Source: Deltaproteobacteria bacterium
GTDB taxonomy: Bacteria; Desulfobacterota; Binatia; UTPRO1
NCBI GenBank assembly: GCA_020848745.1
Contig: JADLHM010000125.1
Span: forward strand, 1-36,861
Direction of reading: 5' to 3'
Length of the DNA: 36,861 nucleotides
Shown: positions 23,121 through 34,945 of the stretch, in pieces
How positions within the stretch are numbered: the first letter of the stretch is position 1
Layout: each line of letters begins with the position of its first letter
Notes under the pieces: generated by a model
Told to the model about the DNA's origin: nothing
Database searches by the model: none
Seen by the model: the letters and a program-made list of their open reading frames with translations, nothing else
Translations under genes and position numbers: made by a program

Positions 23121-23235
23121 GTTAAGCCGCGTGCTCCGGAGGGTCAAGGTTGCGCGCCCGGTCGGCCGGCGCGTCAAGATTCTGACCGGCGCGGGTCTCA
23201 AGACGCCGTGCAAAGTGGCCGAGAATGTCACTGCG

Positions 23236-26200
23236 ATGAGCACGCCCGAACGGCTGGCCGGCGCCCGCGCCCTCCTGCGCTTCGTGGCGCGCCAGGGCCG
23301 ACTCAGCATGGAGGATGCCGCGCGCGTCGAGGGTCTCGTCGCGGACGGCACGTCCGTCCACGAGGTGCTCGAGCGCGAGGGGCTGATCGGTCAGAAGGAT
23401 CTGGCGCTCCTCCTCGCCGAGACGTTGCGCCTCCGCATCGTCGACCTCACGACGTATCCGCTCGACGCCAACGTGACGCGCGAGCTCAAGGAGGCGGTCG
23501 CGACCCGCTACGAGGTCGTGCCGATCGGCATCGATGCGCAGATGATCGAGGTCGTGACCGCGAACCCGCTCGATCTCGACGGCCTGAAGGCGGTGGAGTT
23601 CGCGACCGGCAAGCGCGTCCAGGCGGTCGTCGCGACGCAGGTCGAGGTGAAGGACGCGCTCGCTCACACCTATCGCCTCCAGGAATCCCTCGAGCAGTTC
23701 CTCCAGCTCGTGCCCGCCAGCGAGTCCCTGGTCGTGAACGAGCTCAGCGACGAGGGCGACGACCTGCGGACGGTCGCCGCCGACGCCGAGCTGCCTCCCG
23801 TCATCAAGCTCGCCGACAAGATGCTGATCGAGGGCATCAAGTCGCGAGCGAGCGACATCCACGTCGAGCCCGAGGGCGACTCGGTCCTCGTGCGCTACCG
23901 CGTCGACGGCATCCTCGAGGAGGCCTTTCGCTTCCCCAAGTGGATCCAGAACCCGCTCGTCGCGCGTCTCAAGGTGATGGCGAAGCTCGACATCACCGAG
24001 CGCCGTCTGCCGCAGGACGGCCGCATCCAGGTCCGTTACCTCGACAAGACGGTGGACATGCGGGTGTCGAGCCTGCCCGCCCAGCACGGCGAGAAGATCA
24101 CGCTCCGCATCCTCGACGCGAGCCAGGCCGTGAAGGCGCTCGATCGCCTCGGCTTCGCGGCCGGCGACCTGAAGCTCATGCGCGAGGCGGCGAAGAAGCC
24201 GCAGGGGATGATCCTCATCACCGGCCCGACCGGTAGCGGCAAGACGACCACCCTCTACGCGCTCCTGCGCGAGATCTTCTCGCCGAAGACCAACATCGTC
24301 ACGATCGAGAACCCGATCGAGTACCAGCTCAAGGGCATCAACCAGGTCGAAGTCAACGAGAAGCAGGGCCTGACCTTCGGCAGCGTGCTGCGGTCCGTGT
24401 TGCGCCAGGATCCCGACGTCATCCTGCTCGGCGAGATCCGCGACAAGGAAACCGCCGGGATCGCGTTCCAGGCGGCGAGCACCGGACACCTCGTCCTCAG
24501 CACCGTCCACACCAACGACGCCGCGGGCGCCGTGACCCGCCTCCTCGACCTCGGGCTCGAGCCGTACGCGATCGCGTCGGCGTTGAACCTGGTGGTGGCG
24601 CAGCGGCTCGTGCGGCAGCTGTGCCCGGCGTGCGCGAAGCCGATCGATCTCGATCCGGGGATGCGGTGCCAGCTCCACCTCGAGGAGGGCGCGACCGTGA
24701 AGCAGGCGGCCGGCTGCGCGCAGTGCCGGCACCAGGGCTATCGCTCGCGCATGGGCGTCTACGAAATGCTGCCGATGACGGGCGCGATCACCAAGCTGAT
24801 CGAGGCCGGCGCCGGCGAGAGCATGGTGCGCCAGCAGGCGCGCAGCGAAGGCGCGCACTCGATGCTGGAGGACGCGGTCGAGAAGATTCGCGCCGGCGTG
24901 ACCAGCGTCGAAGAGGTGCAGCGGGTCGTCCAGATCGCCGACGCCGGCAACGCGCAGTGTCCCGGGTGCCGCAAGGAGATCGCCGAGGACTACAGCGTCT
25001 GTCCGCATTGCAGCAAAGTGCTGCGCGCGTCGTGCGGCGGCTGCGCCAAGCCGCTGAACCCCGAGTGGGTGCGGTGTCCGTACTGCGGGGCTTCCTCCGA
25101 GGCGGATGGGGCTGCCTCCGTCGAGGCGCCCGCGGAACGGCGGAGCTTCAAGGCGCTGGTGGTCGACGACACGGCGACCATCCGCGACGTCGTCCGACAC
25201 ACGCTCGAGCACTCCGATCTCGGGCTCGCGGTCGTGACCGCCGAGGACGGTCCGCAGGCGCTCGAGATCGCGGGACGCGAGCGCCCCGACATCGTGATCC
25301 TCGACATCTCGATGCCCGGCATGGACGGATTCGAGGTGTGCCGCCGCCTGCGCTCCGAGATGCGGACGGCGTTCGTGCCGGTTCTCATGCTGACCGCCCA
25401 CGACAGCGAGGACGACGTCGCGCGCGGCTTCGGCGTGGGCGCCGACGACTACATGGTGAAGCCGTTCCGCCGCGAAGGGCTGCTCGCGCGCGTGAAGCGG
25501 ATCCTCGAGCGGACCTACGGCGGCCAGGCGGTCGGCGCGCCGCCGCTGCCGAACACGACGCGTGGCGCGGCGTCGGTGTCCGACGTGGAGGCGGTCGCGT
25601 CCGCGACGTCCCATGCCGCCGAGCCGAGCTCGGAGATCGCGGCGACGGTCGCCGCGCTCGCCGCCGAGCGCGATGCGCTCCGCGACGCCGTCGCCGCGAG
25701 CGGCGATCGTCTGGGAGCGCTCGTGGACCGGATCGACGAGCTGGCCGCGCGGGTCGGGGAGCTTGCGGCGCGCACCGAGGCGGTCGAGGCACGGCCGGTC
25801 GCGGCCCCGCAGCCCGATGCCCCCGGCGCAGCGCCGGCGCTCGACGAGATCCGCGGGCTCGTTGCCGCGCTGCGCGAGTCGCAAGAACGGCGCTTCGCCG
25901 AGCTCCGTGCCGACGGGGCGCGTGCGGCCGCGATCGCGGAGGAGGCGCTCGCGAGCGCGCGCGCCACGGCCGGCGCCGTGCCGCCGGCCGGGTTCGCCGC
26001 GATGATGAGCACGCTCGACCAGCTGCAGGGCGAGCATGCGGCGCTCGCGTCGGTCGTCCGGGCGGCAGCCGCGGCGAGCGAGGCCGCGGGCGGAGCGGAC
26101 GAGGAGTGCGAGCGCCGTCTGCGCGAGATGGGCGCCGAGGTCGCCGAGCTCCGGACCGCCACGGTCACGCTCGAAGAGGCGCTGCAAGGCGAGGCCCTCG

Positions 26201-27627
26201 CAACGACCGAGCGCGTGGCGCGCGAGCTCGCGGCGATGCGCCAGGACGTCGCGGCGCAGGACGAGCGGCGGGCGGAAGAGGCGCGGCGCCTGGCGAGCGT
26301 CGAGGACGCCGCGCAGCGGGTCGCGGGGGAGATCGACGCGGCGATCGACGCGGCGACGCGGCGGCTTCGAGAGGATCTGGCGGCGATCGAGCGCGGCGTC
26401 GCCGTGCGCGGCGGGGTCGATGCGGCGCTCGCGGGACGTCTCGAGACGCTCGCGCAGCACGTGGACGCGGTCGCGGCCGAGGCCGTCGCCGGACGGGAGC
26501 GCGAGACGGACCTGCGGCGTCGGGCCGACGACGCGACGACGTCGGTCGAGCGGCTCGGCGCAGCGGTGGAGGCGCTCCGCCACGACGTGGAGGAGGGCGG
26601 CCGGGCCGCGGTGGAGCTCGATGCGCGTCTGGGGCAGGGCGAACAGACGATCGGCGCGGTCCGGGGCGACCTCGCGGCCGCGCTCCATGCGGCGGGTCGC
26701 GATCGGGACGAGATCCACCGGCTGGCCGCGGCCGAGGCGGCGACGCGGGCGACCAGCGACGAGGCGCTCGGGACGGCCGAGCGGGGCGCGGCGGAGCTCG
26801 CCGCCCTGCGCGAGTCCATCGAGGCGCGATTCGGGCGCGGCGAGGAGGCGGCCGGCGAGCTCCGCGAGGCGATCGGCGCCCGTCAGGGAGCGCAGGAGCG
26901 TCAGCTGGTGCGGCTCATGTCGCGCGTCGCCGGGGCGCGGCGGGTGGCGGTCAAGGTCGTGCGGCGTGTGCGGGCCGCGGGTCGCGCGTCCGAGGCGCGC
27001 CTCGAGGCGCGCGAGGTGGCATGCGATCGCCGGATCACGGCGGTCCGCGAGGAGGCGCTCGCGGCGCTCGCGGACGCGCGGCGGGAACAGGCGGCGCTCG
27101 CCGCTCGCCTCGATGCCGTCGACGCGGCGCGCGCCGCGGGCGAGCACGAGGTCGACCGGCGGCTCGGCGCCGAGCTGGACGCGCTCAAGAGCGTGGTCGA
27201 GCGGCTCGACGGCGATCATCGGCGGCTCGCGGCCGACGTGGAGGAGCGCCTCCGCAACCTCATGCGAACCGCCGCCAACGGATTCGACGTCCAGCTCGCG
27301 CTCCTGCGCGGCAAGGTCGAGGTCCTCGCGCGGACCCTCCGCGATCAGATGCCGACGGACCCGGCCGTGCCCGCCGCCGAGGACGCGCTCCTCCACCACC
27401 GGCACGGGCTCATGGAGATGCTGCGCGATCAGCTCGCGACGCTGCGGGGCGGCGTCGAGTGGCGCCCGCAGCGGGTTCTCGACCTCCTGGTCGAAAGCTC
27501 GCTCGCGGCGGCGATCTCGCCGCTCCGGCGGGTGCTGCAGCTCGCGCAGGGCGCGACGTCCGAGCCGAAGGCGGTGGCCGATGCCGGCGCCGCCGACGTC
27601 ACGGACGAGTCAACATCACCTTCTTAG
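23236..27627 (+). CDS. PilB/GspE ATPase fused to double zinc ribbon, receiver domain and long coiled coil
   Basis: A 1463-residue fusion. Residues about 30-160 are a GspE/MshEN-type N-terminal domain. The secretion/pilus ATPase follows, with SRASDIHVEPEGDSVLVRYR, Walker A GPTGSGKT at 330-337 (Lys336), VILLGEIRDKETA (Walker B), STVHTNDAAGA and the tetracysteine insert starting C463-PAC466. Residues 575-617 form a double zinc ribbon: C575/C578/C589/C592 and C600/C603/C614/C617, each CxxC-x10-CxxC. A receiver domain spans 640-760 (Asp644/645, phospho-Asp690 in LDISMPGMDG, Lys742). Residues about 790-1385 are Ala/Glu/Arg-rich coiled coil, then a helical tail. Normal PilB is about 570 residues. 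The single uninterrupted frame speaks against an assembly error. It probably powers type IV pilus or type II secretion assembly under phosphorelay control; no pilin genes are here. Confidence 0.9.
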   Translation: MSTPERLAGARALLRFVARQGRLSMEDAARVEGLVADGTSVHEVLEREGLIGQKDLALLLAETLRLRIVDLTTYPLDANVTRELKEAVATRYEVVPIGIDAQMIEVVTANPLDLDGLKAVEFATGKRVQAVVATQVEVKDALAHTYRLQESLEQFLQLVPASESLVVNELSDEGDDLRTVAADAELPPVIKLADKMLIEGIKSRASDIHVEPEGDSVLVRYRVDGILEEAFRFPKWIQNPLVARLKVMAKLDITERRLPQDGRIQVRYLDKTVDMRVSSLPAQHGEKITLRILDASQAVKALDRLGFAAGDLKLMREAAKKPQGMILITGPTGSGKTTTLYALLREIFSPKTNIVTIENPIEYQLKGINQVEVNEKQGLTFGSVLRSVLRQDPDVILLGEIRDKETAGIAFQAASTGHLVLSTVHTNDAAGAVTRLLDLGLEPYAIASALNLVVAQRLVRQLCPACAKPIDLDPGMRCQLHLEEGATVKQAAGCAQCRHQGYRSRMGVYEMLPMTGAITKLIEAGAGESMVRQQARSEGAHSMLEDAVEKIRAGVTSVEEVQRVVQIADAGNAQCPGCRKEIAEDYSVCPHCSKVLRASCGGCAKPLNPEWVRCPYCGASSEADGAASVEAPAERRSFKALVVDDTATIRDVVRHTLEHSDLGLAVVTAEDGPQALEIAGRERPDIVILDISMPGMDGFEVCRRLRSEMRTAFVPVLMLTAHDSEDDVARGFGVGADDYMVKPFRREGLLARVKRILERTYGGQAVGAPPLPNTTRGAASVSDVEAVASATSHAAEPSSEIAATVAALAAERDALRDAVAASGDRLGALVDRIDELAARVGELAARTEAVEARPVAAPQPDAPGAAPALDEIRGLVAALRESQERRFAELRADGARAAAIAEEALASARATAGAVPPAGFAAMMSTLDQLQGEHAALASVVRAAAAASEAAGGADEECERRLREMGAEVAELRTATVTLEEALQGEALATTERVARELAAMRQDVAAQDERRAEEARRLASVEDAAQRVAGEIDAAIDAATRRLREDLAAIERGVAVRGGVDAALAGRLETLAQHVDAVAAEAVAGRERETDLRRRADDATTSVERLGAAVEALRHDVEEGGRAAVELDARLGQGEQTIGAVRGDLAAALHAAGRDRDEIHRLAAAEAATRATSDEALGTAERGAAELAALRESIEARFGRGEEAAGELREAIGARQGAQERQLVRLMSRVAGARRVAVKVVRRVRAAGRASEARLEAREVACDRRITAVREEALAALADARREQAALAARLDAVDAARAAGEHEVDRRLGAELDALKSVVERLDGDHRRLAADVEERLRNLMRTAANGFDVQLALLRGKVEVLARTLRDQMPTDPAVPAAEDALLHHRHGLMEMLRDQLATLRGGVEWRPQRVLDLLVESSLAAAISPLRRVLQLAQGATSEPKAVADAGAADVTDESTSPS

Positions 27628-28093
27628 GATCCTTCAGCCCGCCGAGCAGCTCGGACATGGACGTGCCGAGGTGCGGGTGGGTGACGTGCGGCGCGAGTTC
27701 CGCGAGCGGCATCAGCACGAAACGCCGCGCGTGCATCTCGGGATGCGGAATCTTGAGATTCTTCTTGTTGACCGTCTGGTTGTCGATGAGAAGGAGGTCG
27801 ATGTCGATGATGCGCGAGCCCCAGCGCTTGCCGGTGACGCGCTTGCGACCCATCGATTTCTCGATCGCGAGCGTCTGCTTCAGGAGCGCTTCGGGCTCGA
27901 GGTCGGTCTCGATCTCAAGGACGCTGTTGATGAACCAGGTCTTGGCGTTGCCGTGCGGCTCGCTCTCGTAGAGCGACGACGCCTTCACGATGCGCGTGCT
28001 CGGCAGCTCGGCCAGGCGCCCCTCGGCCTCGCGGACGTTCGCCTTGCGATCTCCGAGATTGGAGCCGAGACCCACGTAGACCCGATGCGCCAT
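27599..28093 (-). CDS. folK: 2-amino-4-hydroxy-6-hydroxymethyldihydropteridine diphosphokinase
   Basis: A 164-residue folate-pathway kinase that transfers pyrophosphate from ATP to 6-hydroxymethyl-dihydropterin. RVYVGLGSNLGDRKANV is the family N-terminus. YESEPHGNAKTWFINSVLEI, KRWGSRIIDIDLLLI (substrate and Mg binding) and IPHPEMHARRFVLMPLAELA follow. It is the last gene of the dap block, 43 bp after dapL. Its final 29 bases overlap the 3' end of the convergent PilB-fusion gene, so antisense read-through is likely. Length matches the family. Confidence 0.94.
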   Translation of the reverse strand: MAHRVYVGLGSNLGDRKANVREAEGRLAELPSTRIVKASSLYESEPHGNAKTWFINSVLEIETDLEPEALLKQTLAIEKSMGRKRVTGKRWGSRIIDIDLLLIDNQTVNKKNLKIPHPEMHARRFVLMPLAELAPHVTHPHLGTSMSELLGGLKDPKKVMLTRP

Positions 28094-28136: not shown

Positions 28137-29306
28137 CTAGAGTTTGAGCGTCTTCAAACGTTCCACGGCTTCCGCGAGCCGCGGCGTTGCGACCGTCAGA
28201 CTGAAGCGGATGTACCCTTCGCCGGCGGCCCCGAACCCGCTGCCCGGGGTCGCGACGACGCCGACGTCCTGCAGGAGCTTGGCGACGAGGCTCGTCGACG
28301 TGAAGCCGCGCGGACAGGCGACCCAGACGTAGAAGGTGCCGCGCATGGGCTGCGCCGCGAGCCCGAGGCTCGCCAACGCCGGCAGGATCATGTCGCGGCG
28401 CTCGCGGTAGAGCTCGCGCATCTTCGCGACCGGCGTCTGGTCGCCGGTGAGCGCCGCGATGCCCGCTTCTTGCACGGCCTGGAAGATGCCGGAGTCGACA
28501 TTCGTCTTGACTTTGCCGAGGCCCGCGACGAGCGCGCGATTGCCGGCGGCGAAGCCGACGCGCCAGCCGGTCATGTTGTAGGTCTTCGAGAGCGAGTGGA
28601 ACTCGATCGCGAGGTCGCGCGCGCCGGGCGTCGCCAGGAAGCTCGGCGGCGGCTCGTCGAAGTAGATCTCGGAGTAGGCGTTGTCGTGGGCGACGATGAT
28701 GCCGTGGCGATCGGCGAAGGCGACGACGTCCGCGAAGAACTGGCGAGAGGCGAGGGCGCCGGTCGGGTTGTTCGGATAGCCGATCCACATGAGCTTGGCG
28801 CGCTTCGCGACCTCCTCCGGAATCGCCTCGAGGTCGGGGAGGAAGCCGTTCTCGGCGCGCAGCGGCATCGGGTAGACGGTGCCGCCGTTGAATTGCGTGC
28901 CGATCGAGTACACCGGGTAGCCCGGGTCGGGCACGAGAACGATATCGCCGGGATCGACGAAGGCGACCGCCATGTTGGCGATGCCCTCCTTGGAGCCGAT
29001 CAGCGACACGACCTCGGTTGCCGGATCGACCTGCACCGCGAAGCGCTTCTCGAGGTAGCTCGCGGCGGCGGCGCGGAAGCTCGGCATGCCCTCGTAGTCG
29101 GGATAGCGGTGGTTCGCCGGCCGGGTCGCGGCCTGCTGGAGGGCGGCCACGATGTGCGGAAACGTCGGGCTGTCGGGGTCGCCGATGCCGAGGCTTATGA
29201 GGTCGACGCCGCGCGCGGCGACCTCTTTCTTCATGCGGTCGATCTCGGCGAAGAGATACGGCGGCAGCTTGCGAATTCTCTCGGCAGGAAGGATACTTAC
29301 GGGCAC
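28137..29306 (-). CDS. dapL: LL-diaminopimelate aminotransferase
   Basis: A 389-residue class I/II PLP aminotransferase that converts tetrahydrodipicolinate directly to LL-diaminopimelate, bypassing the succinylase steps. SILPAERIRKLPPYLFAEID and LISLGIGDPDSPTFPHI are characteristic of DapL. WIGYPNNPTGALAS and SLSKTYNMTGWRVGF (PLP Lys) are the fold motifs. The start is GTG 29306 with AAGGAG nine bases upstream. The open frame continues to 29411, but that extension is not conserved-looking. Neighbouring dapA, dapB, dapF and lysA complete the pathway and support the DapL call over a generic aminotransferase. Confidence 0.9.
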   Translation of the reverse strand: MPVSILPAERIRKLPPYLFAEIDRMKKEVAARGVDLISLGIGDPDSPTFPHIVAALQQAATRPANHRYPDYEGMPSFRAAAASYLEKRFAVQVDPATEVVSLIGSKEGIANMAVAFVDPGDIVLVPDPGYPVYSIGTQFNGGTVYPMPLRAENGFLPDLEAIPEEVAKRAKLMWIGYPNNPTGALASRQFFADVVAFADRHGIIVAHDNAYSEIYFDEPPPSFLATPGARDLAIEFHSLSKTYNMTGWRVGFAAGNRALVAGLGKVKTNVDSGIFQAVQEAGIAALTGDQTPVAKMRELYRERRDMILPALASLGLAAQPMRGTFYVWVACPRGFTSTSLVAKLLQDVGVVATPGSGFGAAGEGYIRFSLTVATPRLAEAVERLKTLKL

Positions 29307-29456
29307 CGTCTCGCTCTCCTTCGTGACGACAGCGCGCCGCTCGAATCCACCAGCAGCCACGCGAAACCGATCGAAGAGCCGCTCCTTAGCCGAACACTCC
29401 CGCGAGCACAAGGCGGCTCTGCGATTCGTATATGCGGGCGCGTGGCCCGCGGCGCA

Positions 29457-30254
29457 CTACTCCCGTTCGATCAACAAGCTCTGCACCGAGCGGCCGATCG
29501 GACCGTGCTCGTCGTAGAGCCGGCTTTCGGCGAGGCCGACGCCGAGCGGGTCGGGGAGCGTCGTCGACTCGAGGGCAACCCACTCGCCGACGGGATGGCG
29601 GTGCAGGTAGATCGTGAGGTCGGGGTTGATGAAGCGATAGCCGTCGCGACGGCTCACCATCCAGCTGATGCCGTTTCCGAAGTCGGCGGCCGCGGCGACG
29701 CGTGAGAGCCGTGAGGTCGCCTCGCCGGCGACCAGCGGCACGCGGAGGCGGATCCAGGCGGTCGCCGGTCCCGGCTCCTCGAAGCTGCCGGCGACGAAGA
29801 GCATCTCGATCGCGCCGGAATGGAAGCCGGAGTACTGGACCTGCGCGGCCCACGGGGGCAGGCTCGCCACGCCGCTCGTCGGCGGCGGCGGGTGCCCGAC
29901 CGGCGCCGCGCCTTCCGGCAGCGGCACCCGCCCGCGCCGGAGGCGGAGCCCGCTCGCGCGTGCGACCTCGACGCCCGTGGCGGCGACGGCGAGCGACGCC
30001 TCCACGAGCTGCACCTTCTTTCCCGGGCGCGCGAGCCGCGTCGCGAGCCGGAGCGGCGCGATCGGAACGGGACGCAGGAGATCGACCGTGACCCGCACGA
30101 CGAGCATCGCGTCGCCGCCGTCGAAGCGCTCGATGGCGCGGGCCAGGAGGGCGGCGGGCGCGCCGCCGTGCTGCGCCTCGGGCGTCCACGGACCGCGTGC
30201 GAGATCGGTGGGGAGGACGACGTCGCCGTCCGCCACGAATACGGAATCGCTCAT
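29457..30254 (-). CDS. TesB-like acyl-CoA thioesterase family protein
   Basis: A 265-residue double-hotdog protein of the 4HBT_3/TesB-like thioesterase family. PWTPEAQHGGAPAALLARAI opens the first hotdog and WALESTTLPDPLGVGLAES-like sequence (VALESTTLPDPLG, then RLYDEHGPIGRSVQSLLIE) closes the second. It lies between dapB (53 bp upstream) and dapL (150 bp downstream) on the same strand but has no evident lysine role. The ribosome binding site is poor. It may be a hitch-hiker in the operon; the acyl-CoA substrate is unknown. Confidence 0.82.
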   Translation of the reverse strand: MSDSVFVADGDVVLPTDLARGPWTPEAQHGGAPAALLARAIERFDGGDAMLVVRVTVDLLRPVPIAPLRLATRLARPGKKVQLVEASLAVAATGVEVARASGLRLRRGRVPLPEGAAPVGHPPPPTSGVASLPPWAAQVQYSGFHSGAIEMLFVAGSFEEPGPATAWIRLRVPLVAGEATSRLSRVAAAADFGNGISWMVSRRDGYRFINPDLTIYLHRHPVGEWVALESTTLPDPLGVGLAESRLYDEHGPIGRSVQSLLIERE

Positions 30255-30307
30255 GGACGGGAAGACCTAACCGGGCGCCGGAGCTACCGCCAGAGGTGCG
30301 TTGCGCG

Positions 30308-31102
30308 TCAGAGGCCGAGAACGTCGCGCATGCCGTAGACGCCCGGCCGCTGCTTCGCGAGCCAGAGCGCCGCGCGAAGTCCCCCGCGCGCCAGGCACTC
30401 GCGGCTCTGCGCGCGGTGCGCCAACTCCAAGCGTTCGCCCGCGCCGAGGAAGTACACGGTGTGGTCGCCGACGACGTCGCCGCCGCGGACCGCGAGGACG
30501 CCAAGCTCCTCGTCCTGGCGCGGGCCGGGCTCGCCCTCGCGGCCGAATACGCCGCGGCCGGCGAGCGGCCGCCCCTGCGCGGCCGCCGCGACCTCGCCGA
30601 GGCGGAGCGCAGTGCCGCTCGGCGCATCGCGCTTCAGCTTGTGGTGGATCTCGACGATCTCGACGTCGAACGACGGCCCGAGTGCCGCGACCGCCTGCTC
30701 GATCAGGCGCTCGAGCACCGCGACGCCGACGCTCATGTTGGGTGCGATGACGCTGCGCGTGCGCGCGGCGAGCGTCTCGGCCTGCGCGCGCTCGTCGGCG
30801 GTGAAGCCGGTCGTGCCGACGACGATCGCCGCGCCCGTTTCGGCGGCGATCGCGAGGTGCTCGAGCGCCGCGGCGGGCGCGGTGAAGTCGAGGGTCACGC
30901 TGTTCGCGGGCGGGGCGTAGGCGTCGACGACCTTCACGCCCGTGGCCGCGACGCCGGCGAGCTCGCCCGCGTCGCGGCCGACCGCCGGATGCCCCGGCGC
31001 CTCGACGGCGGCCGCGAGGGTCGCGCCGGGATCTTCGAGCACGAGCCGGACGAGCAGCCGGCCCATGCGGCCGGCCGCGCCGCAGACGACGATCGGCGTC
31101 AT
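30308..31102 (-). CDS. dapB: 4-hydroxy-tetrahydrodipicolinate reductase
   Basis: A 264-residue NAD(P)H-dependent reductase, the second committed step of lysine/diaminopimelate synthesis. IVVCGAAGRMGRLLVRLV is the nucleotide-binding loop, VVGTTGFTADERAQ and VIAPNMSVGVAVL lie around the active site, and VEIVEIHHKLKRDAPSGTAL is the catalytic signature (His-His-x-x-Lys). Its ATG overlaps the dapA stop (ATGA). Length matches the family. Confidence 0.95.
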   Translation of the reverse strand: MTPIVVCGAAGRMGRLLVRLVLEDPGATLAAAVEAPGHPAVGRDAGELAGVAATGVKVVDAYAPPANSVTLDFTAPAAALEHLAIAAETGAAIVVGTTGFTADERAQAETLAARTRSVIAPNMSVGVAVLERLIEQAVAALGPSFDVEIVEIHHKLKRDAPSGTALRLGEVAAAAQGRPLAGRGVFGREGEPGPRQDEELGVLAVRGGDVVGDHTVYFLGAGERLELAHRAQSRECLARGGLRAALWLAKQRPGVYGMRDVLGL

Positions 31103-31995
31103 GACGCGAGCAGCCCGAGCCCGCGCAGCGCCGCGGCGAGCTCGGCGCGGCGTCCCGCGTGCGTCATGGCGACGAGCGGCAAGCGGAGTTCGTCGCGGCA
31201 GAGGCCGAGGAGCGACAGGCCGTGCTTCAGCGGGATCGGGTTGCTCTCGGTGAACGCCGCGCGCATGAGCGGGAAGAGCCGCCGCTGGATGGCGCGCGCC
31301 TCCACGAAGTCGCCGGCGAGCGCCGCGGCCGCGAGGTCGGCCATCTCGCGCGGGACCAGGTTGCCGATCGTCGTGATGACGCCCGCACCGCCGTTCGCGA
31401 TCACCGTGAGCGTCGTCGAGTCGTCGCCCGAATAGATCTCGAAGTCGTCCGGGACGGCGTGGACGACATCGAGCAGGTGGTCGAGCGCATCCGACTCCTT
31501 CAGGCCGATGATGTTCGGGTGCCGCGCCAGCTCGGCGATGGTCGGCGCCTCGATCGCGCGTCCGGTGCGGCCCGGAATGTTGTAGAGGATGATCGGGAGG
31601 TCGGCCTCGTCGGCGACCCGGAGGTAGTGGAGCTTCAGTCCCTCCTGCGTCGGGCGGTTGTAGTATGGCGAGATCATGAGGGCCGCGGCGGCGCCGGCCT
31701 TCTTTGCCTCGCGCGTCAGACGTACCGCCTCGGCGGTCGCGTTCGATCCCGTGCCGGCGATCACCGGCACGCGCCCGCGCGCTTGCTCGACGGCGAAGCG
31801 CACGACCTCGGCGTGCTCCTCGTGCGTGAGGGTGGCGGCCTCGCCGCTCGACCCGCAGGGCACGAGCGCGGAGGAGCCGCCGGCGATCTGGCGCTCGATC
31901 ATCGCGCCGAACGCCTTCCAGTCGATCGCTCCGTCGGCGAAGGGCGTGGCGAGAGCGACCATGGAGCCGGTGAACCGTGGAGGGCGTGTCGTCAT
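31099..31995 (-). CDS. dapA: 4-hydroxy-tetrahydrodipicolinate synthase
   Basis: A 298-residue TIM-barrel aldolase joining pyruvate and aspartate semialdehyde. The Schiff-base Lys is Lys166 in NIIGLKESDA. Tyr138 in ILYNIPGRTGR is the catalytic Tyr. The usual GTTGE motif reads GSSGE here (Ser49-Ser50), a conservative change at the Thr of the proton-relay triad. ISPYYNRPTQEGLKLHY is intact. It lies 22 bp after dapF and overlaps dapB by 4 bp. Other aldolases of the family (NanA, KDG aldolase) are possible in principle, but the operon decides for DapA. Confidence 0.93.
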   Translation of the reverse strand: MTTRPPRFTGSMVALATPFADGAIDWKAFGAMIERQIAGGSSALVPCGSSGEAATLTHEEHAEVVRFAVEQARGRVPVIAGTGSNATAEAVRLTREAKKAGAAAALMISPYYNRPTQEGLKLHYLRVADEADLPIILYNIPGRTGRAIEAPTIAELARHPNIIGLKESDALDHLLDVVHAVPDDFEIYSGDDSTTLTVIANGGAGVITTIGNLVPREMADLAAAALAGDFVEARAIQRRLFPLMRAAFTESNPIPLKHGLSLLGLCRDELRLPLVAMTHAGRRAELAAALRGLGLLAS

Positions 31996-32017
31996 GGGTA
32001 CCGTCCGTTGGCTGCGC

Positions 32018-32887
32018 TCAGACGCCGGCCGCGGCGTAGAGCTGTTCGAGATCGACGTCGGCGGTGAAGACCTCGGCCGCCGCGCCGGTCATGAAGACGT
32101 GGTCCGGCGCGATCGGAGCGCCGGGGGCGCGCCATTCGACCTCGAGGTCGCCCCCGCGGAGGTGGACGGTGGCGCGCCGGTCGGTCCGATCGGTCAGCAC
32201 GCCGGCGACGAGCGCGGCGCAGGCGCCGGTGCCGCACGCCATCGTCTCGCCCGAGCCGCGCTCCCACACGCGGAAATCCATGACCGTCCGCGAGCGGACG
32301 GCGACGAACTCGGTGTTCACGCGCTTCGGAAAGAACGGGTGGTGCTCGAACTGCGGGCCGATGCGCGGGAGGTCGAGGGCATCGACGTCCGGCACGAACA
32401 CCACGCAGTGCGGGTTGCCCATCGAGATGCAGGTGATCTCCCAGGTCATGCCCGCGACCTCGAGCGGCTGGTCGATGACGCGCCCCTCGTGTGCCACCGG
32501 GATGCGCGGGCCGTCGAGCACGGGCACCCCCATGTCGACGGTGGCGCCGATCGCGCGGCCGTCCGCTCCGACCGCGACCGTGATCGTCTTCGGTCCGTCG
32601 TCGGTGTCGATCCGCATCGGGTTCTTCGCACACCCCCGGTCGAAGACGTACTTGGCGACGCACCGGATGCCGTTCCCACACATCTCCCCGCGGCTGCCGT
32701 CGGCGTTGTACATCTCCATGCGGCAGTCGGCCCCGTCCGCGGGCCGCACCAGGATGAGCCCGTCGGAGCCGATGCCGTGATGGCGGCGCGCGACGGCGCG
32801 CGCGAGGCGGGGCGGATCAGCGACGACGTCGCGGTCCCGGCAATCGACGTACAGGTAGTCGTTGCCGATCCCGTGCATCTTGGTCAT
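32018..32887 (-). CDS. dapF: Diaminopimelate epimerase
   Basis: A 289-residue cofactor-independent racemase that turns LL- into meso-diaminopimelate. Two catalytic Cys are visible, in GEMCGNGIRCVAKYV and in GETMACGTGACAALVA. TKMHGIGNDYLYVDC is the N-terminal substrate loop. I take ATG 32887; a GTG at 32905 would add six residues and place the start directly behind the lysA stop, which is equally possible as neither has a strong ribosome binding site. It lies between lysA and dapA in one transcription direction. Confidence 0.94.
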   Translation of the reverse strand: MTKMHGIGNDYLYVDCRDRDVVADPPRLARAVARRHHGIGSDGLILVRPADGADCRMEMYNADGSRGEMCGNGIRCVAKYVFDRGCAKNPMRIDTDDGPKTITVAVGADGRAIGATVDMGVPVLDGPRIPVAHEGRVIDQPLEVAGMTWEITCISMGNPHCVVFVPDVDALDLPRIGPQFEHHPFFPKRVNTEFVAVRSRTVMDFRVWERGSGETMACGTGACAALVAGVLTDRTDRRATVHLRGGDLEVEWRAPGAPIAPDHVFMTGAAAEVFTADVDLEQLYAAAGV

Positions 32888-32908
32888 GCGGACCACGTCG
32901 CCCACGCG

Positions 32909-34162
<1,254 letters not shown>

Positions 34163-34381
34163 GCGGGTCCTCGGGTCGTGGTCAGGGCTCGGGCTCGGCC
34201 GCGGGCGGCCATCGGGAGACCATACGCTCCCGTGCGGGACGCCGCTAGTTTCGTGCGGCGGTTCGATCCGCAGGCGCATGCTGCATGGCTTCGACGGTTC
34301 TGGAAATCTCAGCCGCGCCAGCCTCGAACCGACGCTCTTCTCCGACGTGCGCGCGCCGAATAGATCCACGCGGCGCTTCGG

Positions 34382-34945
34382 ATGGCCCTCGATCTCGATG
34401 CCGGTTGTCTCTTGAAGGTGCTGTGTTCCGAGCCGGAGACGCTGCGGACGCTCGAGCTGATCGCGGAGGAAGATCGCATCGTCGTTTCCTCGCTCGCCAG
34501 GGTCGAGGCGCTCACGCCTCTCCACGGTCGGGTCGCCGGTGGTCACCTTTCGCGAGCAGGCGCCCGGAGGCTGGCCAAGCGGCTCGCCGCGCTTCTCGCG
34601 ACCGACCCGTACGAACCCATGAACGTTCCGGTGACGATCTACGACCTGGCGGTCGAACATGTCGCACCGTTCGCCCCGAACGACTACTGCCGTAGTCTCG
34701 ACCGACTGTACCTCGCCGTCATGGATGCGCTCCGGTTGCGCCGTCTTCTCACCAACGACGACGCGCAGGCACGCGTGGCCGAACGGCTGGATTTCGACGT
34801 CGTGTTTCCGCGCGGAGATCGAACTCGTTACGGGAAGAGGAGACGAAGTCCCGGGGAGGGCGAAGGTCCGAACGACTACGTGGCTACGGCGCGCGGTCGT
34901 CGGGGTTCGGACTCGGTGCCGGGGCGGACGGTGGGCTCCACGTGA
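34382..34945 (+). CDS. PIN-domain (VapC-like) putative ribonuclease
   Basis: A 187-residue frame whose first 144 residues look like a PIN domain. It opens with [14 protein letters not shown] (acidic Asp6), followed by [12 protein letters not shown] (Glu42), [15 protein letters not shown] (Asp107) and [15 protein letters not shown] (Asp126/127), ending FDVVFPR. These are the four acidic metal positions of VapC-like RNases. Residues 145-187 are a low-complexity tail that runs into the antisense end of the FN3 lipoprotein gene (overlap 34884-34945) and may not be native. No recognisable antitoxin lies before it. It points opposite to every neighbour and splits the argH-to-lysA gene order, so it may be a recent insertion. 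Confidence 0.65.

Follow-up and report, generated by a model that had tools for sequence, protein, structure and literature searches.

The closest described systems to the protein considered here are the PilB (TIGR02538; PDB 5tsh, 5tsg, 5zfr) and GspE (TIGR02533; PDB 1p9r, 4ksr) ATPases, the switching and placement of type IV pilus and type II secretion motors being mostly known as the work of separate proteins, including PilZ, FimX, FrzS, SgmX and MglA. An MshEN domain combined with a two-component receiver has been on record since 2016, in a paper whose accessible part makes no mention of a double zinc ribbon or a coiled coil joined to it (Wang et al., 2016; PMC5013675). A receiver followed by a coiled coil is found in FrzS of Myxococcus xanthus, where the coil is sufficient for polar localisation and the protein aids the polar recruitment of PilB (PMC11580455).

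In the 36,861-nt stretch of DNA analysed here, hereafter the window, which comes from a soil or water bacterium, a gene on the plus strand (23236-27627) combines these parts in one chain. As originally predicted, it is a single uninterrupted frame, whose translation gives 1463 aa and a stop, and Pfam bears out the proposed domain order: 1) an MshEN domain (23428-23688, residues 65-151; PF05157, 2e-17), 2) a PilB/GspE-like T2SSE ATPase core (23788-24924, residues 185-563; PF00437, 5e-133), 3) a double zinc ribbon (DZR; 24958-25089, residues 575-618) with eight cysteines, and 4) a receiver (REC; 25156-25497, residues 641-754; PF00072 Response_reg, 6e-30), followed by a coiled-coil region (25624-27348, residues 797-1371) delimited by periodicity, the AlphaFold helix and composition. 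The Pfam DZR match (4.6e-6, 27.1 bits) lies slightly below the gathering score of 27.3, a cut-off that the DZR homologues of three relatives (G098, G036 and G101) exceed. The Walker A motif GPTGSGKTT (24223-24249, residues 330-338), the eight cysteines in two CxxC-x10-CxxC units, and the receiver's phosphoacceptor Asp690 (25303-25305) and Lys742 (25459-25461) are all where the original prediction had placed them. Together with Walker B, the Asp and His boxes and the usual CxxC...CxxC zinc site of the core (C463/C466/C494/C497), this places the protein in the T2SSE superfamily, and the AlphaFold model of the ATPase matches PilB (5tsh/5tsg) at about 2 Å over 380 residues. The model as a whole has a pTM of 0.49 and linkers with pLDDT <50, and the position it gives REC relative to the ATPase is unreliable.

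The frame stays open upstream to 23050, and the start first chosen is the right one, as conservation in two relatives, L029 and L030, sets in at MSTPE (23236); both ends of the gene are conserved in them. The GC content at codon positions 1, 2 and 3 (0.78/0.49/0.92) marks the frame as a coding gene. A very long antisense frame (23122-27405, -) was dismissed as a high-GC artefact, since the codon-position composition favours the plus strand.

The protein shares the MshEN domain, the ATPase core and the four-Cys zinc site with PilB, and the core fold and motifs with GspE. In contrast to PilB, it carries an added DZR, REC and coil, falls into a separate clade and is encoded outside any pil operon; as to GspE, its genome encodes separate GspE proteins. 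It scores below the NCBIfam equivalog cut-offs of both families, with 561.8 bits for PilB (TIGR02538, cut-off 675.65) and 545.8 bits for GspE (TIGR02533, cut-off 630.25). In a maximum-likelihood tree built from 41 ATPase cores, a DZR-tailed lineage, the window protein included, is set apart from the PilB and GspE clades by a branch with 99/98 support. Of the same genome's other ATPases, L003, encoded in a pilB-pilT-pilC operon, groups with PilB, while L001 and L002, the latter from a gspD-E-F operon, fall with GspE. The original assignment to PilB/GspE thus holds as far as a full ATPase of this type is concerned, but the protein is neither PilB nor GspE proper; on this phylogeny, it is a member of a third, DZR-tailed lineage of PilB/GspE-type ATPases.

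Within this lineage, the proteins with a C-terminal REC form one clade (100/99), the two proteins with an N-terminal REC (G098 and G036) branch as its sister with weak support (84/66), and the remainder are DZR-only proteins from across the phylum, with which L013 also groups despite having no DZR itself. The G098 and G036 proteins (on L111 and L116) have the same four domains without the coil, arranged as REC-MshEN-ATPase-DZR, so that REC stands at their N terminus and not, as in the window protein, after ATPase-DZR. A second, distant REC-MshEN-ATPase fusion is encoded in the window's own genome (L005, L114:10141-12885 on contig C14 of G000; 914 aa, REC at residues 189-300, no DZR); a long branch in a quick earlier tree, it was left out of the 41-core tree along with other long rows.

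The receiver is complete, as had been proposed: it retains the pocket residues of response regulators (D645/D646, D690, T720 and K742), by which it is predicted to be phosphorylation-competent, and its closest solved relative is the receiver of PleD (1.5e-32). It is also the slowest-evolving domain of the protein. In comparisons of the window with L029 or L030, dN/dS is 0.036-0.042 for REC, 0.10-0.19 for the ATPase core, 0.08-0.22 for the DZR, 0.34-0.77 for blocks of the coil and 0.24-0.31 for the C-terminal end.

The c-di-GMP input that MshEN supplies in related ATPases is probably absent here. The tandem c-di-GMP motif expected at the N terminus (RLG..., 53 residues) is degenerate in the window protein, which matches neither the relaxed pattern nor, at E-values up to 10, the NCBIfam model NF053729. 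With the relaxed pattern (tandem RLGxx..G....L...L..Q), 11 of 12 DZR-only proteins show at least one copy, as against none of seven proteins with a C-terminal REC. Three DZR-only proteins score 56-67 bits with NF053729 (cut-off 38), and six REC-tailed ones give no match to it at E-values up to 10. Imperfect motifs may still bind c-di-GMP, according to an earlier study (PMC5013675). The MshEN domain here is probably not a c-di-GMP reader, and control of the window protein by c-di-GMP was set back as a candidate by the negative motif test. As the REC-tailed proteins form one clade, the loss of the motif counts as a single evolutionary event, and the pattern therefore does no more than suggest that c-di-GMP input was swapped for REC input.

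The tail beyond the receiver consists to 24% of Ala, 13% of Arg and 11% of Glu. AlphaFold2 models residues 797-1371 as a near-continuous helix of ∼575 residues, at low confidence (mean pLDDT 58), and the hydrophobic residues (ILVMF) over 801-1340 recur with a period of 3.5 (z = 15 vs shuffles). Since a period of 3.6 has much the same power, as it does in any amphipathic helix, the test shows an amphipathic helix, of which a coiled coil is the natural reading. The long heptad-patterned tail of the original prediction is thereby upheld, but not its end at ∼1385: the helix extends to ∼1371 and is followed by a conserved segment (27457-27549, +; residues 1408-1438) that is near-invariant in L029 and L030. 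The last part of the coil (27217-27354, +; residues 1328-1373) is likewise near-identical in both, the remainder being 50-55% identical to L030. These two blocks suggest a binding site at the far end, and residues 1408-1438 may form a partner- or membrane-binding helix.

In its succession of a receiver and a long coiled coil, this half of the protein resembles FrzS, which also has a required C-terminal tail (PMC11580455, PMC1974792). In contrast to FrzS, whose pseudo-receiver lacks a phosphorylatable Asp and which is separate from the ATPase, the window protein keeps the conserved Asp690 and has receiver and ATPase joined in one polypeptide. The 60 best PDB matches of the window receiver do not include FrzS.

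Given the speed at which the coil evolves and the lability of its length across the clade, the protein could be an ordinary redundant paralogue that gained its domains by neutral fusion, with REC and coil adding little function. We regard this as quite improbable, as it sits poorly with a REC dN/dS of ∼0.04, a near-invariant C-terminal block, and the 704-709 aa kept after REC in three genomes (707 in the window, 704 in L029 and 709 in L030; 759 in L031) despite a coil identity to L030 of 54%.

A scan of 84,980 genomes for the same layout recovered the fusion in three separately assembled MAGs, L029, L030 and L031, which are 94%, 89% and 67% identical to the window over ATPase-REC. An assembly or sequencing artefact joining separate genes, which the in-frame position of a coil gene past a TAG stop in G056 (see below) might bring to mind, was rejected as extremely improbable, as the fusion recurs in these independent MAGs, each with a frame that runs across the junction without a stop and shows coding constraint on either side.

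In the part of the class that was sampled, eight relatives came to light; each has REC behind the ATPase on the same polypeptide, and the DZR is lost in one. The coil is much more variable: it is long and fused in four, reduced to a tail of ∼75 residues in one, encoded by a separate adjacent gene in two and absent from one (L032, in which the core is present). The order was sampled by six genomes, three of this genus (among them G102 and G103, apparently the genomes of L030 and L029), G100 (apparently that of L031), G101 and G099. The coil is present in all three genomes of the genus, and G100 also has the long fused frame; in G101, the ATPase-DZR-REC core is followed by only ∼75 residues, and in G099 we found no REC-tailed match. 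The fused-coil family forms a clade (95/85) in the maximum-likelihood tree.

In G056, from the same class, the ATPase-DZR-REC gene ends in TAG, and a coil gene of 222 aa, with its own GGAGG ribosome-binding site and a C-terminal hydrophobic, transmembrane-like helix, follows 15 nt downstream in the same frame. In G092, the coiled-coil gene encodes 547 aa, and its start overlaps the stop of the ATPase-REC gene (TGATG). The separate coil proteins of the two are alike (E = 5e-10), while their likeness to fused coils is weak (window-G092, E = 0.02; G056-L031, E = 3e-4), so that a shared origin would rest mainly on position. It seems that a neighbouring coil gene was taken into the chain a single time in this family, with a shortening in G101. 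Of the doubt attached to the original prediction, that relatives would encode the parts as separate genes and a sequencing error would account for the fusion, the first half proved partly justified, the coil being separate in G056 and G092 and a stub in G101, and the second is excluded. Judged by these sequences, ATPase-DZR-REC is the conserved core, which the four-part layout extends in a lineage-specific way.

The G092 orthologue (L011:1489-3750) has GPTGSGRTT in place of the Walker A motif (Lys to Arg), has Ala at the Walker B Asp, and lacks four further residues as well as the DZR. Full length, with REC and the adjacent coil gene, it is a probable pseudo-ATPase, and its losses would make motor activity dispensable in some lineage. 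This orthologue speaks for reading the protein as a regulatory hub and not a motor, with the ATPase ring as a nucleotide-dependent hexameric platform that gathers six receivers and coils, and with recruitment or signalling, not pilin polymerisation, as output. The stronger constraint on REC than on the ATPase points the same way, as does the genomic setting of DZR-only and REC-tailed genes, which mostly stand alone among housekeeping genes. The G092 gene may, however, itself be decaying, the remaining REC-tailed proteins keep their ATPase motifs and have a slowly evolving core, and one relative, G101, lies beside prepilin genes; we consider a hub unlikely, while giving it more weight than any other alternative.

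The divergent neighbour of the window gene, P0002 (21915-23066, -; 383 aa from Met96 of the frame), encodes a PAS-HisKA/DHp-receiver protein with an intact HEINNP H-box and receiver, in which the domain search found no HATPase_c. DHp domains without a kinase domain can serve as phosphotransferases or phosphatases, as in Spo0B, ChpT and the EnvZ DHp, and by analogy P0002 may be a relay partner of either kind. It adjoins the ATPase gene in L029 and L030 as well, that is, in three genomes of one genus with a syntenic region, and is not beside the ATPase gene in L031, G056 or G092. No complete kinase gene lies next to the window gene, whereas one adjoins the ATPase gene in the cousins G098, G036 and G077.

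On its other side, the gene overlaps the convergent folK (27599-28093, -) by 29 nt at its 3' end, an overlap also seen in L029 and L030. Beyond it lie lysine/DAP genes (28137-34660, -), encoding an LL-DAP aminotransferase, an acyl-CoA thioesterase, DapB, DapA, DapF and a DAP-decarboxylase-like (LysA-like) protein; like folK, these are housekeeping genes. A further neighbour is an aldo/keto reductase gene. No pilus or secretion genes occur within the window, and the gene is not located in a gsp operon.

Some relatives have more telling surroundings. In G098 (L111:7928-12285) and G036 (L116:8229-12753), genes for an MglA GTPase (PDB 3t12 match, 2.5e-44), a histidine kinase and the REC-MshEN-ATPase-DZR protein stand side by side, possibly as a polarity and pilus control operon; in the window's genome, MglA finds a weak match only. 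In G077 (L121:6825-10718), a DZR-lineage ATPase without the DZR is followed after ∼25 nt by a REC-PAS-HisKA-HATPase-REC gene. In G101 (L135:997-6121), the ATPase-DZR-REC gene is divergent from a prepilin-like gene cluster with a GspH/FimT-type prepilin (4.7e-8), a weakly matching PilX-like gene (0.005) and, by inspection of the prepilin motif alone, a PilW-like gene and a PilV-like reading.

The GspH-domain prepilin of G101, together with an ATPase core about equally near the PilB and GspE profiles, would suit a motor dedicated to a type II-like secretion system or a pseudopilus, in which REC and coil control secretion and not surface motility. As no gsp genes were found near the REC-tailed orthologues examined, and the T2SS operon of the window's genome has its own GspE, which exceeds the equivalog cut-off, such a motor seems improbable to us, if less so than redundancy.

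We tentatively prefer a different explanation, which we hold to be a real possibility falling just short of probable: that the protein is a REC-gated assembly ATPase of a pilus or pseudopilus, positioned by its FrzS-like REC/coiled-coil half. We prefer it because the ATPase motifs are complete and the model superposes on PilB hexamer subunits, and because REC is under the tightest constraint and the C-terminal-REC members are a single clade within the DZR lineage. A two-component role is favoured by the repeated ties of the lineage to two-component genes (G098, G036 and G077), and a link to pili by the prepilin genes beside the orthologue of one relative, G101. The separate coil genes of G056 and G092, the distribution of the c-di-GMP motif and the FrzS precedent count in its favour as well. 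Against this explanation speak the lack of pilus and secretion genes in the window of a genome that has its own GspE and pilB-pilT-pilC operons, the restriction of the prepilin link to one relative, the lost ATPase residues of G092, the position of MglA beside the N-terminal-REC cousins and not the window protein, the missing kinase domain of P0002, and the weak likeness of the fused coil to the separate ones.

A REC-gated assembly ATPase of this kind would be a two-component response regulator with a hexameric PilB/GspE-type assembly ATPase as its output, whose ring would either power a type IV pilus or pseudopilus machine or compete for its cytoplasmic base. Each subunit's receiver, once phosphorylated at Asp690, would change how the ring assembles, hydrolyses ATP or docks, a control that would stand in for the c-di-GMP input provided by the N-terminal domain of related ATPases; in this relay, P0002 is a candidate phosphotransferase or phosphatase. 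The coil, probably once a separate neighbouring gene, would bundle the six tails and tether the ring at the pole or envelope, much as FrzS acts in trans for PilB recruitment in Myxococcus. As to its history, it is conceivable, if somewhat doubtful, that within this third lineage, marked by the DZR, one branch exchanged c-di-GMP for phosphorylation input and then absorbed a separate, FrzS-like targeting coil.

Each of the parts was known already, and their combination in one chain is apparently undescribed. The novelty claimed for the layout stands in so far as the literature searched, which leaves most subscription papers outside, holds no description of it, nor of the DZR lineage, REC-DZR-ATPase chains or the coil fusion. 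The DZR lineage, a branch of these ATPases apparently without a name, turns up repeatedly in the sampled phylum. In a motor with the proposed history, signal reception, motor activity and subcellular placement would be covalently joined. Carrying its own switch and tether, such a motor would allow a direct biochemical test of the gating of a pilus-type hexamer by receiver phosphorylation.
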